Origin: Rhodovastum atsumiense
GTDB taxonomy: Bacteria > Pseudomonadota > Alphaproteobacteria > Acetobacterales > Acetobacteraceae
Assembly: GCA_026225115.1 (NCBI GenBank)
Contig: JAMFSE010000106.1
Coordinates: forward strand, 1 to 49,467
Direction: 5' to 3'
Length of the DNA: 49,467 nucleotides
Of the stretch, positions 1-46,508 are shown piece by piece. Made by a program: the position numbers and the translations under genes. The notes under the pieces are model-generated. The model did no database searches, was not told the DNA's origin, and saw nothing but the letters and a program-made list of their open reading frames with translations. How positions within the stretch are numbered: the stretch's first letter is position 1; each line of letters opens with the position of its first letter.

Positions 1-62
1 GAGCACCGGAGCGGAGCGTATTTCAGTACGTGAGCAGGGTGCGGCCGACCGCCGGAGCACGG
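1..62 (-). repeat. Family B structured repeat, copy B1 (cut by window edge)
   Basis: This divergent, truncated copy shares the core GCGGCCGACCGCCGGAGC (about 40-57) and the preceding GTGAG with the copies at 40788-40943 and 46362-46476. The short stem before the core is CGTA/TACG (around 17-31), where the other copies have GGCC/GGCC and CGACCT/AGGTCG. It lies downstream of the stop codon of fliE. Read in the direction of fliE transcription, it has the same orientation as the other two copies relative to their upstream genes. Its outer arm is outside the window. Confidence 0.6.
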
Positions 63-107
63 AGAATCGCCGTCAGGCGGCCACCAGCGCGGCTTGTGGA
101 ATAATCT

Positions 108-410
108 CTATATGGGCATGTTCATGATGGATTGGTACGCTTGCACCATGCGGTCCCGCAGCGCGACGGTGGTTTGCAATGCCAGCTGGGCCTGGGTGAC
201 GGAGGTGACGATCTGGGTGAGGTCACCCTGGCCGTTGAGCCCCTGCGCGGCCGCCGCGTCGGCCTGCTGGCCGGTTTGCACGGCGCTACCCAGCGCGTTT
301 GACAGTGCTGTGCCGAAGCCTTCCGAGCCGCCGACCGAACGATCCGAAGCCACGCGTGCATAGGCCTGGGCGGCGGCGTTCGGCGTGACGGTGAGCGAAC
401 CAATGGCCAT
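108..410 (-). CDS. fliE: Flagellar hook-basal body complex protein FliE
   Basis: This 100-residue protein matches FliE in size and character. FliE sits at the junction of the MS ring and the proximal rod and is exported by the flagellar type III apparatus. The C-terminal half (about residues 62-100, with LTQIVTSVTQAQLALQTTV then RDRMVQAYQSIMNMPI) is the conserved FliE helix: a region rich in T/Q/A/L followed by a conserved R..v.AYq.i..M. No signal peptide is seen, as expected for a type III substrate. It is last in a flgB-flgC-fliE operon, with 5 bp to flgC. Confidence 0.93.
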   Translation of the reverse strand: MAIGSLTVTPNAAAQAYARVASDRSVGGSEGFGTALSNALGSAVQTGQQADAAAAQGLNGQGDLTQIVTSVTQAQLALQTTVALRDRMVQAYQSIMNMPI

Positions 411-40787: not shown

Positions 40788-40943
40788 GAGAGTGTTTCAA
40801 ACGCGCTAGGCTGAGTCAGCTGACGTGTTTTTCGAGAACTGGATCGGAGCGGCCTATTGGCCGTGAGGACGGCAGCGGCCGACCGCCAGGAGCGCAGAAA
40901 AGCGCGCCAGATGGCCAGCCTAGTAGCGTTTTCAAACACTCTC
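40788..40943 (-). repeat. Family B structured repeat, copy B2 (complete)
   Basis: A 156-bp element bounded by inverted repeats: GAGAGTGTTTCAAACGCG at the left (40788) and the complement of GAGAGTGTTTGAAAACGC at the right (ending 40943), continuing to a CTAGGCT/AGCCTAG pairing. Inside are GAGTCAGCTGACGTG, the hairpin GGCC-TATT-GGCC, and the core CGTGAGGACGGCAGCGGCCG with ACCGCC. It fills the space between maf and the GST gene. Its right end supplies the first two bases of the maf stop codon. Confidence 0.75.
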
Positions 40944-41553
40944 AGCCACGCAAGACTTTTGCCTGGCGCAGATAGTCGAACAGCGGCAGCAGCGGCAGGC
41001 CGAGGATGGTGAAGAAATCGCCGTCGATGCGGGTGAAGAGTTGGCTGCCCAAGGCCTCCAGCCGGTAGGCGCCGACGCAATGGCAGAGTTCTTCGCCTTC
41101 GGCGTCGAGATAATCGGCGATGAATGCCGGTGAGAGGCTACGCATGGTGAGTTTGGGTGTTGCGACGTGATGCCAGACCATCAGGCCGCCGCGATAGACG
41201 CAGACCGCAGTGACAAGGCTATGGGTTTTGCCGCTGAGGCGCGCGAGGTCTGCTTCGGCGGCTGCGAGATCGGCGGGTTTGTCGAACCAGTCGTCGCCGC
41301 AGACCAGCAGCTGATCGGCGCCGATGACCAGGGCGACCGGAAATTTGCCGGAGATGCGCTGGGCTTTCAGCTCGGCCAGCGCTAGCGCCAGTTCGGCGGC
41401 CTCCCAGCCGTCATGCTTCGCGGCCTCTTTGACGGCCGCTTCATCGACATAGGCCGGCATGGCCTCGATCTGGAGCCCGGCCTGGCGGAGCATAGACTGG
41501 CGGGCCGAAGACGTGCTCGCGAGGATGAGCTGGATATCCGGGTTCTGGATCAT
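40942..41553 (-). CDS. maf: Maf family nucleoside triphosphate pyrophosphatase
   Basis: A 203-residue cytoplasmic pyrophosphatase that removes non-canonical nucleotides such as modified UTP or m7GTP. The N-terminal IQLILASTSSARQSMLRQAG is the Maf fingerprint. VDEAAVKEAAK, LVIGADQLLVC (catalytic Asp), and SLVTAVCVYR with EGEELCHCVGAYRLEALG complete the pattern. The C-terminus and stop lie at the very edge of the family B repeat. Confidence 0.93.
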   Translation of the reverse strand: MIQNPDIQLILASTSSARQSMLRQAGLQIEAMPAYVDEAAVKEAAKHDGWEAAELALALAELKAQRISGKFPVALVIGADQLLVCGDDWFDKPADLAAAEADLARLSGKTHSLVTAVCVYRGGLMVWHHVATPKLTMRSLSPAFIADYLDAEGEELCHCVGAYRLEALGSQLFTRIDGDFFTILGLPLLPLFDYLRQAKVLRG

Positions 41554-41682
41554 GGCAAATTTTCAACGGGACTTTCAGGGCGGAAGGGCGTAGCTTGCCC
41601 AGGGGTGATGTGGACCCAATGCCGTAAGGCGTGAAGCCAAGGCCGGCAAGCGGTGCGCGCCCCGAACATCGCGGGGGAACAA

Positions 41683-42543
41683 ATGCATATTCGCAATCCC
41701 ATTGAATGGCTGTTTGGCCAAGCCGATCTGGCGACGGCAAATGTCGGCGCCGCGCGGCCGGCGGAATACTGGGCGCCGCGCAAACTGCTGCGGGCGCCAT
41801 CGGTGCGGAAAATCACGTTCGACGACCTCAAGCAATCGCTTGAACTGGGTGTAAAAGATTTCGCCGCGGCGCGGACCGACGTGGCCCTTCTTTGTCTGAT
41901 CTATCCGGTGATCGGCATTTTTCTGGCGGCGCTCACTGCGCATGGGAGTCTGATCCCGCTGATGTTCCCCATCGCCGCCGGTTTCACACTGGTAGGGCCG
42001 TTCGCGGCTTTGGGCCTGTATGAAATCAGCCGGCGGCGGGAGATGACCGGCAGCGCCAGCTGGCTTGCCGCCTTCGATGTGCTGCGCTCGCCCGCCATTG
42101 GCAGGCTCTGCCTGCTGGGTGGGGTGTTGATCGGCCTGTTTCTGCTTTGGCTGGCCGCCGCATTGGGCATTTATGATGCGACCTTGGGGCCGCGCCCGCC
42201 GGCATCGGCCGCGGCATTCCTGAGTGAATTATTTACCACCCCGGCGGGCTGGGCGATGATCGCTTTGGGGCTGACGGCCGGTGCGGTGTTCGCGGTGGCG
42301 GCGCTGGCGATCAGTGTGGTCTCCTTCCCGATGCTGCTCGACCGGCCGGTGAGCTTAGGGACTGCCATTCGCCACTCGGTCTACGCGGTCCGGCTCAACC
42401 CCGGCGCGCTCGGGGTGTGGGGCATCATGATTGCGGCCGGGCTGTTCCTGGGGTCTTTGCCCTGCTTTCTAGGCCTGATCGTGGTGCTGCCGGTGCTTGG
42501 CCATTCAACCTGGCATCTGTACCGCCGGCTGATACGGCGTTAG
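41683..42543 (+). CDS. DUF2189 integral membrane protein
   Basis: A 286-residue protein with about six membrane segments (around 66-84, 90-112, 136-160, 188-214, 240-275). The DUF2189 family pattern is recognisable: RKITFDDLKQSLELGVKDF before the first helix, ASWLAAFDVL, VVSFPMLLDRPVSLGTAIRH and a final LPVLGHSTWHLYRRLIRR. Related alphaproteobacterial proteins have a cytochrome-like or regulatory role that is not established. The ATG at 41683 has GGGGGAACAA upstream and is chosen over 41653. Confidence 0.85.
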   Translation: MHIRNPIEWLFGQADLATANVGAARPAEYWAPRKLLRAPSVRKITFDDLKQSLELGVKDFAAARTDVALLCLIYPVIGIFLAALTAHGSLIPLMFPIAAGFTLVGPFAALGLYEISRRREMTGSASWLAAFDVLRSPAIGRLCLLGGVLIGLFLLWLAAALGIYDATLGPRPPASAAAFLSELFTTPAGWAMIALGLTAGAVFAVAALAISVVSFPMLLDRPVSLGTAIRHSVYAVRLNPGALGVWGIMIAAGLFLGSLPCFLGLIVVLPVLGHSTWHLYRRLIRR

Positions 42544-42850
42544 CTTCCTAACTCCAATCCGGACGAACCTCTTTGACGTTGAGCCAGCCGGGAGCCAGCC
42601 GGCTGCCGGCGCGTGGCCGGATGGGCGGGTGCAGCTCGGTTGTGTCGTTCGGACCAGTGCCCTGCCGCTTCTTCGAGCTACCTAAAAATATTCTGCTTAA
42701 TAAATATACATAATTCGGACGAAAAACCATCAAACTCATTTCTTGTCCGGATCGAGCGCATAATTTTGCGTCAAATCCTTGCAATCGCGCTTGCCATGGC
42801 AGCGTTATAATGTGTTTTATCGGCTCGAAATGGATGAAGGAGCCACCCCC
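42544..42850. promoter_or_regulatory. Intergenic region with repeated CGGACGAA motif upstream of amine oxidase
   Basis: The motif ATCCGGACGAA recurs four times in both orientations: 42557-42567, inverted at 42645-42654, ATTCGGACGAA at 42713-42723, and TTGTCCGGAT inverted at 42743-42752. The last two form an imperfect palindrome about 40 bp long. TATAAT at 42806-42811 is a likely -10 element for the amine oxidase gene, with TTGCAA (42779) or TTGCCA (42791) poorly spaced. The copies may be operators of a local regulator. A short minus-strand frame (stop 42548) was not judged to be a gene. Confidence 0.45.
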
Positions 42851-44803
42851 ATGGATGACATGATCCACACCGTACCCGCCGCTGCCGGCATCAGCGCCGC
42901 GCTGCGGCACCCGCTGGAACCGTTGAGCGCCGCCGAAATCCGTCTAGTAATGGCGGTCATTCACGGGGCAGCGGATTTCGGCCCGCAATTTCTGTTCGAG
43001 ACGATCGAGCTGAAAGAGCCGCCGCGTAGCGCCATCGCCGATTTCGAAGCCGGCCGGGCGACGCCGCGGGAAGCCAGAACCAATTTATTTCTCGGCGACG
43101 CGCCAGGGGTTTGGCGGCTGACGGTATCGCTGAGTGATGCCGCGATCACCGCGAAGCAGTATCTCGCCACCAAACACCCGATGGTCCAGCTTGAGCAGTT
43201 TATGGTCATCGAGGATATCGTGCGGGCGCATCCGGATTTTATCGCCGCCTGCAACCGCCGCGGCATCACCGATATAGCCAAGGTCTGCGTGGATCCCTGG
43301 TCGGCCGGCAATTTCGGCGTCGAGGGCGAGGACGGATACCTGTCCCACACCTTCTGCTGGCTGCGGCTTCGCGAGCATGAAAATTTCTATGCCCATCCGA
43401 TCGAGGGCATCAACGCCGTGGTGGATATCAAGGCGGGCAAGGTTATCCGCGTGGATGATTATGGGGCAAAGCCGATTCCGATGGCCGAGTTCAATTACGA
43501 GGCAAAATTCCGTACCGAATTCCGGGCGCCGCTGAAGCCGCTCGATATCGTCCAGCCGGAGGGCGCCAGCTTTACGCTGAACGGCCATGCGCTGGCCTGG
43601 GATAAATGGTCGCTGGTGATCGGCTTCAATGCGCGCGAGGGCCTGACCCTGCACGACATCCGCTACGACAATCGGCCGATCGTCAACCGCGCCGCGCTGG
43701 CGGAAATGGTGGTGCCCTACGGCGTGCCGGAGGGCGGGCATTTCCGCAAGAACGTGTTCGATATCGGCGAATACGGGCTTGGGAAACTGACCAATTCGCT
43801 GGCGCTGGGCTGCGATTGCCTGGGCAATATCGCCTATCTGGACGTCGATCTGAATACCATGACCGGCGATATTTTCCATATCGACAAAGCGATCTGCATC
43901 CATGAGGAAGATAACGGCATTCTTTGGAAGCATTGGGATTTCCGCACCGAACGCACCGAGGTCCGGCGCGGCCGCAAGCTGGTGGTCTCCTCGATCGCGA
44001 CGGTCGGGAATTACGAATATGCCTCCTACTGGTATTTCACCCAGGACGGCATGATCGAGTTCGAGATGAAGGCGACGGGGATCATCAACACCTCCGCCTG
44101 CATCCCCGGCCAGCCGACGAAATACGGCAGTGAAGTTGCCCCCGGCCTGCAGGGTCATATCCATCAGCACGCCTTCTGCGCGCGGCTGGAAATGGCGGTC
44201 GACGGTCCGGGTAATTCGGTCGTGGAATGCAATAGTTTTGCCGAGGAAGATGCGAAAAATCCGTATGGCAATGCGTTCTATCAGCAGGAAACCGTGCTGA
44301 AGACCGAGCTGGAAGCCGGCCGGAAGGCCAATGCCGAGACGATGCGGTATTGGAAAGTGATCAACCCGAACAAGACCAACCATACGGGCTCGCCGGTCGG
44401 TTATAAAATCTATCCCCAGAACGTGCTGACCTCGTATCTGAAACCCGGCTCGCCTTCGGGGATCCGTTCCAGCTTCACCGAAAATCACCTCTGGGTGACG
44501 AAATTCGACCCGGAGGAACGCTATCCGGCGGGCGAATACATGAACCATTCGGACGGCAAAGGCGGGGTTGCGGATTTCGTGAAGCAGGACCGGTCGCTTG
44601 AGAACACTGATCTGGTGCTGTGGCACGTATTCGGCGTGCATCATCAGCCGCGCACCGAGGATTTCCCCGTGCAGCCTTGCATCACCAGCGGGTTCAAGCT
44701 GATGCCGTCCGGCTTCTTCGACCAGAATCCTGGGATCGACGTGGCGCCCGGCGTCAATGCCGCCAGCAAGTTGGCGAACCCCAAATCCTGCTGCGCAACC
44801 TGA
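42851..44803 (+). CDS. Copper-containing primary amine oxidase
   Basis: A protein of about 650 residues that oxidises primary amines to aldehyde, ammonia and hydrogen peroxide with a topaquinone cofactor. The cofactor tyrosine is Tyr388 in the motif GNYEYASYW. Copper ligands are His438 and His440 (HIHQHAF), with a third in HVFGVHHQPRTEDFPV near the C-terminus. The start at 42851 has AAGGAG 8 bp upstream. No signal peptide is seen, so the enzyme should be cytoplasmic, unlike E. coli TynA. The permease gene after it probably imports its substrate. Confidence 0.93.
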   Translation: MDDMIHTVPAAAGISAALRHPLEPLSAAEIRLVMAVIHGAADFGPQFLFETIELKEPPRSAIADFEAGRATPREARTNLFLGDAPGVWRLTVSLSDAAITAKQYLATKHPMVQLEQFMVIEDIVRAHPDFIAACNRRGITDIAKVCVDPWSAGNFGVEGEDGYLSHTFCWLRLREHENFYAHPIEGINAVVDIKAGKVIRVDDYGAKPIPMAEFNYEAKFRTEFRAPLKPLDIVQPEGASFTLNGHALAWDKWSLVIGFNAREGLTLHDIRYDNRPIVNRAALAEMVVPYGVPEGGHFRKNVFDIGEYGLGKLTNSLALGCDCLGNIAYLDVDLNTMTGDIFHIDKAICIHEEDNGILWKHWDFRTERTEVRRGRKLVVSSIATVGNYEYASYWYFTQDGMIEFEMKATGIINTSACIPGQPTKYGSEVAPGLQGHIHQHAFCARLEMAVDGPGNSVVECNSFAEEDAKNPYGNAFYQQETVLKTELEAGRKANAETMRYWKVINPNKTNHTGSPVGYKIYPQNVLTSYLKPGSPSGIRSSFTENHLWVTKFDPEERYPAGEYMNHSDGKGGVADFVKQDRSLENTDLVLWHVFGVHHQPRTEDFPVQPCITSGFKLMPSGFFDQNPGIDVAPGVNAASKLANPKSCCAT

Positions 44804-44940
44804 CATAGCGCTTATTCCGGCGCGAAAAATCCGGCGCCGGGTTCTCAGCCAAAACGGCACAGGAGTTGCATTGCTTGCGCTCGGATAATCCAATTCAACA
44901 CTCGCCTATGTACCGCAAATTGTCTGGAGAATTTTAAAAT

Positions 44941-46356
44941 ATGGTTGCCACCACAGATATCCACGCCGTAGACGTACCGAAGGCGGCACAGCTTAAGCAT
45001 GGCGCGCTGAGCCTGCCGGAAACGATCGGGCAATCGATTGCCAATATTGCGCCGACACTGACACCGGCGCTGAATATCACCGTGGTCGCCGGGCTGGCCG
45101 GCGTGCAGTCCTGGCTGGCTTATCTGATCGCCACGCTGGCTTGCGTGTTCGTCGGCGGCAGCATCTCAACGCTGGCCAGGCGGCATCCGGAGGCCGGTTC
45201 GTATTTCGTTTACATCGGCCGTAACTTCGGCCCGGTGGCCGGTGCCTTGGGCGGCTGGGCGATGATCCTGGCCTACCTCACCACTGCGGTTGCGGTTGTC
45301 TTTGGCTTCCCGCTGTTTCTTGGCAACTTCCTGGCGGTTTTCCACATCACTCTGTCCACGCCGCTGCTGGTCGTGTTCATGATCGCGTTCCTGGGCCTGG
45401 TTACCTATGCGGCGTTCCGCGATATTCAGGTCTCCTCGCGGATCGGGCTGGTGATGGAAACCATCTCGATCGGCATCATCATCATCATCACCGCCATTGT
45501 GGTGGGCAAGCATGGCACCGTGTATGACGCCAAGGAGCTTAGCCTGTCCGGAATGAACTTCGGCGGCGTGAAAACCGCCATGGCGTTTGCGGTGTTCAGC
45601 TTTGTCGGCTTCGAGAGCGCCGCGACGCTGGCCAAGGAATCCGCCAATCCGCATCGCAATGTGCCGTTCGCGGTCATCGGCAGTGCGGCGGCGGCCGGCA
45701 CCTTCTTCACGGTCATGGCCTATTTCATGGTGATGGGCATGAACGATAATGCCGGCGCCATCGGCGGCTCCTCCTCGCCGTTTGCCGATATGACTGCGGC
45801 GGCGCATCTGCCCTGGGCCGCGGGCGTGGTGTATTTTGCCGCCATGATCAGCGCCTTTGCCTGCGCGCTTGCCTGCATCAACGCCAGCTCGCGCATGCTA
45901 TACTCGATGGGCCGCTACCAGTTCCTGCATTCGTCGATGGGTCTGGTGCATAAAACCCATAAAACCCCGCATATCGCGGTGTTGGCCTCCGCCGCGATCA
46001 CGCTGATCCTGGTGCTGGCGCTGCTGCCCGAAGGCTTCCTGAACGCCTTCGGTCTCACCGGAACCATCGCCACCTACGGCTTCGTGGTGGTGTATTTCGG
46101 CATCAGCATCACTGCGCCGGTCGATATGTATCGTGCCGGGCTGCTGAAAATCCAGCATGTGGTGGTCGGCGCCATCGGCGCCTTCCTGATGGGCTTCGTG
46201 ATCTACGCGAGCGTGGTTCCCTATCCGGCAGCGCCGTTCAATACGCTGCCGCCGGCCTTTGTCATCTACATGGTGATCGGTCTGATCTGGTTCTTGATCC
46301 TGAAGGCGCGGAATCCGACCGTCCTGGCCTCCATCGCCAACGACATGGAGGGATAA
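44941..46356 (+). CDS. APC family amino acid/amine permease
   Basis: A 471-residue transporter with about 12 membrane segments. It has the APC-superfamily N-terminal pattern LSLPETIGQSIANIAPTLTP, then PEAGSYFVYIGRNFGPVAGA and FSFVGFESAATLAKESANPH, typical of amino acid-polyamine-organocation carriers. It lies 137 bp after the amine oxidase and reads the same way, so import of an amine followed by intracellular oxidation is likely. The real substrate cannot be read from the sequence. A family B repeat begins 6 bp after its stop. Confidence 0.92.
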   Translation: MVATTDIHAVDVPKAAQLKHGALSLPETIGQSIANIAPTLTPALNITVVAGLAGVQSWLAYLIATLACVFVGGSISTLARRHPEAGSYFVYIGRNFGPVAGALGGWAMILAYLTTAVAVVFGFPLFLGNFLAVFHITLSTPLLVVFMIAFLGLVTYAAFRDIQVSSRIGLVMETISIGIIIIITAIVVGKHGTVYDAKELSLSGMNFGGVKTAMAFAVFSFVGFESAATLAKESANPHRNVPFAVIGSAAAAGTFFTVMAYFMVMGMNDNAGAIGGSSSPFADMTAAAHLPWAAGVVYFAAMISAFACALACINASSRMLYSMGRYQFLHSSMGLVHKTHKTPHIAVLASAAITLILVLALLPEGFLNAFGLTGTIATYGFVVVYFGISITAPVDMYRAGLLKIQHVVVGAIGAFLMGFVIYASVVPYPAAPFNTLPPAFVIYMVIGLIWFLILKARNPTVLASIANDMEG

Positions 46357-46361
46357 TTCTA

Positions 46362-46476
46362 CTGTGTGGTCATCTGAGGCGTCTGTCTGCGCTTCCGGCG
46401 GTCGGCCGCTGCCGTCCTCACGACCTGTAGGTCGCTCCGGTCCGTCTCGACAGCTGCCCCAGCTGACTCACCACAG
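46362..46476 (+). repeat. Family B structured repeat, copy B3
   Basis: Bounded by CTGTGTGGT (46362) and ACCACAG (46470-46476), which can pair. The core reads, in the minus direction, CGTGAGGACGGCAGCGGCCG with ACCGCCGGAAGCGCAGA, as in B2. The hairpin before it is a perfect CGACCT/AGGTCG stem (about 46421-46434), where B2 has GGCC/GGCC. It starts 6 bp after the permease stop and has the same orientation relative to this gene as B2 has to maf. Confidence 0.75.
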
Positions 46477-46508
46477 CGAATTATCGGTTCCCGTGTTTAA
46501 GAAAAAGA

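Follow-up and report, generated by a model that had tools for sequence, protein, structure and literature searches.

A family of ERIC-like palindromic repeats behind stop codons in Rhodovastum atsumiense and other Alphaproteobacteria

A contig of Rhodovastum atsumiense (JAMFSE010000106.1; 49,467 nt, hereafter the window) carries three copies, B1, B2 and B3, of a structured repeat that an earlier note had picked out from the letters alone and called family B. We found that these copies are members of an interspersed family of imperfect palindromes, about 126-142 bp long, well beyond what chance would give. Comparison of sequences indicates that the family is dispersed, is missing from most orthologous sites, is biased towards stop codons and in its orientation to them, keeps a hairpin through paired changes, and shares a core with the enterobacterial repetitive intergenic consensus (ERIC). 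Our favoured explanation, to which we give a probability of about 0.65, is that family B is a non-autonomous mobile ERIC-like palindrome that sits behind stop codons or tRNA genes, usually with the same side at the gene end, and that its hairpin is transcribed with the gene and acts at the 3' end of the mRNA. The role at mRNA 3' ends is the part that we infer.

Structure and spread of the family

The window is the whole of contig C9 of the source genome (G000), a draft of 149 contigs. We built two covariance models of the element, R1 from eight copies (142 positions) and R2 from 99 copies (126 positions); the E-values of such custom-built models are rough. The three copies and the stop codons beside them are as follows.

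1..102, minus strand as mRNA sense (conserved motif reads on the plus strand): B1, far end cut by the contig start; R1 match 1-102 (E 1e-15, 5' cut); adjoins the fliE stop codon
108..110, minus strand: stop codon TAG of fliE, adjoining B1; gene 108-410 (minus strand), PF02049 FliE
40788..40943, minus strand as mRNA sense: B2, complete hairpin with outer arms GAGAGTGTTT/AAACACTCTC; R1 match 40795-40936
40863..40887, plus strand: inner core of B2, GTGAGGACGGCAGCGGCCGACCGCC (exact match), plus an additional small hairpin
40942..40944, minus strand: stop codon TGA of maf; gene 40942-41553 (minus strand), PF02545
46352..46485, plus strand as mRNA sense (motif reads on the minus strand): B3, hairpin with outer arms GATAATTC/GAATTATC; R1 match 46349-46487 (minus strand)
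46354..46356, plus strand: stop codon TAA of an amino acid permease gene, within the outer arm of B3; gene 44941-46356, PF00324/PF13520
46397..46421, minus strand: inner core of B3, a 25-mer identical to that of B2 (exact match)

The earlier note had described a core common to all three copies. B2 and B3 do share the exact 25-mer GTGAGGACGGCAGCGGCCGACCGCC, which did not turn up when the window was shuffled 100 times, but the core of B1 is a looser version, GTGAGCAGGGTGCGGCCGACCGCC, and this copy reaches to about position 102 rather than 62. B1 is without its left arm because the window starts where the contig starts. The genes named in the note (fliE, maf and a permease) were upheld by their protein domains, and each copy lies just after the stop codon; the first two bases of the outer arm of B2 are the last two bases of the maf stop codon. 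The conserved motif as printed in the note is the strand antisense to the adjoining gene; the mRNA would carry its reverse complement.

From its foot to its tip, the element folds into an outer stem, long and interrupted by small bulges at fixed places, then a CCGG/CCGG inner stem, then an internal loop, and finally the hairpin GCGTAC..GTACGT. An additional small hairpin (helix 6) is present in about 12 of 99 copies, B2 and B3 included. Both of these copies fold more stably than their shuffles (-85.7 kcal/mol and z = -8.03 for B2; z = -4.05 for B3), and the paired changes in the inner hairpin, like the outer arms that each match their own partner, are as first described. The covariation extends to many copies: in the 99-copy alignment, both sides have changed at 36 of 43 pairs and 95.5% of cells pair, a level reached by 0 of 500 shuffles, although these figures lean high because the alignment was fitted to the structure. 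The outer arms vary between copies, and an arm pairs better with its own partner than with the arms of other copies. This held against the mean of the other partners for 36 of 39 copies in the source genome and 29 of 33 in other genomes, and none of 2000 permutations reached the observed mean in either set (n = 39 and n = 33, without copies L041, L042 and L044 and without copies short of flank).

A near-exact core pattern, searched across 41 genomes, was present in the source genome only, so we used the covariance models to find further copies. R1 matched 45 times in the source genome and was positive in 24 of 61 genomes (the source genome included). With R2, the source genome gave 55 rows at E ≤ 0.01; nine of these are the opposite strand of another row, which leaves 46 distinct places (weakest E 9e-4). 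In an even draw across the class, at least 24 of 289 genomes match R2, again counting the source genome; the figure leans low, since no more than 12 candidates per genome were scored. Seven named genomes have 12 to 37 R2 rows each, a few of them opposite strands, and 125 rows together. The core pattern was also found in 49 stretches from IMG/VR and in at least 119 stretches of named genome contigs. Among the matches listed, the 80 titled stretches come mostly from Mesorhizobium and other Rhizobiales and then from Sphingomonadales, with Acidocella, Asticcacaulis and six from Paenibacillus as well; taxa with stretches among the matches listed include Mesorhizobium, Phyllobacterium, Devosia, Sphingobium, Acidocella and others. 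A 52-base consensus probe matched 28 plasmid records and no phage record, and a gamma-like variant of the core had no match among viral contigs.

The earlier note had not recognised a named element. In Rfam 15 there was no match for the window at the gathering score and no row at an element when 7 element loci and 10 contigs were searched at permissive thresholds; nor did we recognise a description of the alphaproteobacterial family in open-licence papers. What the note missed was the likeness to ERIC, described below.

A second subtype, with the outer stem CGAAAATGG/CCATTTGCAG, is frequent among the Mesorhizobium and Sphingobium rows (uncounted; L140-L258), and there are palindromes derived from the element by shortening, of 54 to about 110 bp. 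The smallest are mini-palindromes of 54-57 bp that consist chiefly of outer arms (L412 near 1460-1515, directly behind a gene, and L413 near 1501-1557). We also noticed a GANTC site, of the CcrM type, in 34 of 40 source-genome copies, as compared to 0.23 per 126 nt in the window.

Placement at gene ends and mobility

We examined the surroundings of 40 of the 46 places in the source genome, using a simple home-made gene caller based on codon scores. In 29 of the 40, the stop codon of a gene that runs toward the element lies within 12 nt (-8 to +11) of the motif's 3' (right) side. A stop codon is that close on the left side of just one copy, which has both, and a start codon is equally close to none. 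In other genomes, the right side has a stop codon within 12 nt in 23 of 35 copies and the left side in 2 of 35; among 30 copies examined out of the 125 rows from the seven named genomes, 20 have it on the right, 2 on the left only, and 8 on neither side. Where the element lies in a gap between convergent genes (13 copies), 12 are at the right-hand stop and 1 is at the left. Of all the copies with a stop codon on the right side, 28 lie flush with it, as compared to 6.1 if they were spread uniformly over their gap (20 and 7.8 in other genomes). All three stop codons occur at elements. The constant orientation relative to the gene that the earlier note had claimed from three copies is seen in the counts as a strong bias, 29 of 40 in the source genome and 20 of 30 in the named genomes, and we conclude from sequence that the bias in side is real. 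With further copies found and many paired changes in the 99-copy alignment, none of the three outcomes that the note held to count against its idea has come about.

Three copies that lie away from stop codons instead follow a tRNA gene, with the usual side toward it and a gap of 5-7 nt (tRNA-Tyr at L121 and L043, tRNA-Gly at L029). These came from a tRNA scan of five loci; one is in the source genome and two are in other genomes.

Among the IMG/VR contigs, 41 of 52 copies (out of 54 matches) are at a stop codon, but many of these contigs are related and so they are not independent. The adjoining gene ends in a DAIKLLKF tail at 13 of the 52, and both of the two such genes that we tested encode phage capsid proteins (PF05065). 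Elements lie between a capsid gene of phage or gene transfer agent (GTA) type and the next gene in the same direction at L061, L062, L069, L086, L089 and others, and another lies beside a GTA holin gene. An intercistronic hairpin behind a capsid gene could set expression ratios.

To compare filled and empty sites, we counted orthologous loci within the genus if they had at least 150 nt after the stop codon (2 of 30 SDR loci were too short). The element is present at 1 of 30 maf loci, 5 of 28 loci of an SDR gene, and 4 of 30 fmt-truA junctions. In the genomes with an empty fmt-truA junction, the two genes nearly touch. In G012, the element directly follows the fmt stop codon in the usual orientation, and the closest relatives of this fmt (93% and 90% protein identity) have empty sites. 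In G019, G022 and G046, the element is reversed, and in one of these it lies three bases further on. The arms differ between these four genomes, save for G019 and G022. G045, which is not among the 30 loci counted, also has the element reversed. The fmt-truA junction thus appears as an insertion site that has been used repeatedly, and in either orientation, just after the fmt stop codon (L374, L378, L381, L387, L038).

Judged by these orthologous loci, with most sites empty and both orientations at fmt-truA, the element is mobile. The earlier note had offered a mobile palindrome with a preferred target as one of two readings: the empty sites and the bias toward stops agree with it, but the orientation is not constant, since it flips at fmt-truA. 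The other reading was an RNA at the 3' end of transcripts, and on the sequence evidence the two look like two sides of one thing.

We found no target duplication: direct repeats that flank 74 copies are no longer than those obtained with shuffled flanks. At the empty SDR sites of G010 and G006, a small hairpin spans the stop codon. The G010 hairpin has its base in common with the arms of the filled site in G044. This suggests that an element either entered a hairpin at the stop codon or was lost from one.

The last line of evidence is the core shared with ERIC. We located ERIC copies with the ERIC PCR primers, and the joined ERIC core is present in 5375 of 5426 E. coli genomes. When R2, which was built without ERIC, was used as the query, the top two of 15 matches were to a single E. 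coli ERIC locus, once in each of two strains (E 7.5e-4 and 2.7e-3), and the alignment runs through the inner loop and the tip. Conversely, we searched 171 kb from 40 sources (E up to 10) with R3, a covariance model of 13 ERIC copies. All 9 of its matches fall inside elements of the family, and these elements make up 3.7% of the bases.

How the element might act, and rival explanations

The placement at stop codons implies that the element would be part of the mRNA 3' end. We propose that transcription of the adjoining gene runs on into it and yields a long, imperfect hairpin that would include or touch the stop codon at its foot, and that the GGAGC..GTGA internal loop, between the CCGG-type stem and the short tip hairpin, may be recognised by a transposase or a host protein. 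The hairpin RNA could affect the upstream gene by holding back 3' exonucleases, by slowing ribosomes at the stop, or both, or could alter mRNA stability. Such an effect, together with tolerance of insertion just behind a stop codon, would explain why copies persist. There are precedents in PMC5082802, PMC12306157 and PMC2229807: repetitive extragenic palindromes (REPs) are reported to stall ribosomes when within 15 nt of a stop codon and to block decay from the 3' end, and ERIC is reported to alter the stability of upstream mRNA in an orientation-dependent way. The elements of our family fall within the 15-nt range given for REPs.

Several observations weigh against this explanation. In the source genome, 11 of 40 copies lack a stop codon within 12 nt, among them the copy at a tRNA gene. 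Which side faces the gene is a preference and not a rule, since at fmt-truA the reversed orientation prevails (3 of 4 filled loci). An arm's own partner is the best or tied for best in just 15 of 39 and 10 of 33 copies, and a palindrome maintained purely as DNA would give identical paired changes. A transposase that moves the element was not found among PF13751 transposases (38 genomes of the genus, 30 loci examined). As to ERIC, it was chosen for comparison after the likeness had been noticed, and R3 finds just 9 of 48 elements and misses 39; five of its matches have E-values of 0.0026 to 0.033 and four have E-values of 0.76 to 4.4, with one of these spanning 20 nt. Long hairpins in general could favour R3 matches.

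The rival that best survives is a purely selfish miniature inverted-repeat transposable element (MITE). It would owe its movement to a transposase of the IS1182 type, which would target stem-loops (terminators and stop-codon hairpins) and leave no target duplication, so that placement and orientation would follow from the target, with no function as RNA. We consider this account unlikely as a whole. The IS1182 route, which is partly supported, is our best lead for how the element moves. For IS1272, an assigned member of the IS1182 family, PMC5678879 describes transposition by stem-loop replacement, and the lack of flanking repeats and the hairpins over the stop at empty SDR sites fit this mode. 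The outer-arm consensus GAGRCTGTTTSARAA (up to 2 mismatches) matches the genome 60 times, as compared to 14 times for a reversed control, and 26 of the 60 matches are in or at elements. An insertion sequence (IS) of the IS1182 family in G048 (L438, 404-1958) has inverted ends, GAGGCTGTGTGGAAAC, that partly resemble the outer arms of family B, but the match is partial and a 4-bp direct repeat, CACC, lies on either side of the IS; both ends were partly alike at just 1 of the 30 PF13751 transposase loci examined. Stems of at least 7 bp occur at 12 of 76 element-free 3' ends (2.9% in shuffles), but 7 of these 12 hairpins begin 8-14 nt downstream of the stop codon, in contrast to the elements, whose starts range from about -8 to +11. 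Furthermore, no hairpin is apparent by eye at the empty fmt-truA site, and the inner core is retained across genera whose arms differ.

That the family consists of intrinsic transcription terminators is very improbable. A strong hairpin at gene ends with a preferred side would suit a terminator, but by eye there is no T-run after the hairpin foot of B2 or B3 on the sense strand, and we set the idea aside for that reason. A terminator scan, which cannot score such long hairpins, gave two weak 5-pair matches in B2 and none in B3 (8 overall, which does not exceed the level in shuffles, mean 5.5 and sd 2.1), and many copies lie between genes in the same direction (17 of 40 in the source genome, 41 of 52 in IMG/VR contigs). 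We give even less credence to a static, vertically inherited RNA regulator of the 3' untranslated region: the paired changes and an SDR locus filled in five genomes of the genus, with several distinct arm pairs, are in its favour, but the element is absent from 29 of 30 maf, 23 of 28 SDR and 26 of 30 fmt loci of sufficient length, and at fmt it occurs in opposite orientations while the closest relatives of G012 are empty.

An alphaproteobacterial family (apparently also in Paenibacillus) with the ERIC core provides many pairs of filled and empty sites and new genomes in which to seek a factor shared with ERIC. It also gives a sharp, measurable rule (a stop codon no more than about 12 nt away, on one side in most cases) and turns the effect of ERIC-type hairpins on the upstream gene into a testable question.

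Comparison with known systems

An IS1182-related MITE would share some traits with our family, namely partly similar outer ends, no duplication seen, and possible hairpin targets. Unlike such a MITE, the family has no IS with identical ends in the loci examined, and its core is conserved far beyond an IS end.

Among alphaproteobacterial repeats, which we compared by description only, the CIR elements of Caulobacter and Brucella also have a GANTC site. The RNA of CIR is given in part of PMC2229807 as two independent stem-loops, in contrast to the single end-to-end hairpin of our family. RIME1 and RIME2 are palindromic intergenic repeats of Rhizobium, and Bru-RS1 and Bru-RS2 are their like in Brucella, so part of the family may already carry one of these names. 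Excerpts of PMC10800456 and PMC3163539 give Bru-RS sizes of 103 and 106 bp. Bru-RS1 is a 103-bp element beside lldP in B. abortus. Among 30 lldP loci from the genus Brucella, R2 had no match; the published Bru-RS1 primer pair also matches none of them, so the described locus is absent from this sample.

REPs, and the mosaics built from them (BIMEs), are extragenic palindromes too, and some are near stop codons; for these, parts of PMC12306157 and PMC5082802 describe effects on translation within 15 nt of the stop. REP units are much shorter (20-40 bp in a section of PMC3733652) than our elements (126-142 bp). RAYT-associated REPs have GTAG at one end of the unit, whereas only 19 of 40 source-genome copies have GTAG in their final 25 nt, so the family differs from REPs in this as well.

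In Paenibacillus, the same core is within a palindromic repeat of about 190 bp, found in 24 places on one replicon. Its ends are like GAGGTTGTTCAAAAAG (L538, L539, L540; L151, L158, L161, L183, L185). The two copies with annotated neighbours adjoin or overlap the stop codon of the right-hand gene, as in our family. R2 scores 5 of 5 Paenibacillus loci, a biased sample because they were chosen by the core pattern; two diverged copies that lack the pattern, picked up through their similarity to one of the chosen copies, also score (E 1e-7 and 4e-4). The ERIC model R3 did not find the Paenibacillus repeats in 5 loci. We raise, as a tentative idea that has the odds somewhat against it, that ERIC, the alphaproteobacterial family and the Paenibacillus repeat might be branches of one ancient cross-phylum element with the common core GGAGC(G)-TAN..NTA-(C)GTGA, lying behind stop codons, and with one conserved factor that recognises the core. 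If so, bacteria of different phyla would share a movable control hairpin for 3' ends.

ERIC (also known as IRU or RU-1) is likewise an interspersed imperfect palindrome, of about 127 bp, and the layout of its core is alike: a CCCC/GGGG stem, an internal loop with GGAGC and GTGA, and a TTAC..GTAA tip in ERIC correspond to CCGG/CCGG, GGAGC and GTGA, and GTAC..GTAC in our family. Its placement is similar as well, in that an annotated stop codon overlaps, or is no more than 10 nt from, 7 of the 12 distinct ERIC loci that we fetched; the other five are away from listed stops or lack annotation. These stops are on both sides of ERIC (right side for ybhI, cusC, Rahnella and Pantoea; left side for Citrobacter, a gyrA neighbour, ptsG, and Pantoea again), while our family prefers one side more strongly. 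The outer arms differ, with arms such as GAGRCTGTTTSARAA in the family and TATACTC in ERIC, as does the host range (Alphaproteobacteria as compared to enterobacteria). The family also does without the TA termini, the 7-bp terminal inverted repeat and the target duplication of ERIC; a portion of PMC2229807 lists ERIC with TA ends and a target duplication. Because it does not have the termini of ERIC and no duplication was seen, we call the family ERIC-like and not ERIC. Taken together, the sequence comparisons point to ERIC as its closest known kin, by likeness rather than identity, and suggest that the family may work as ERIC does.

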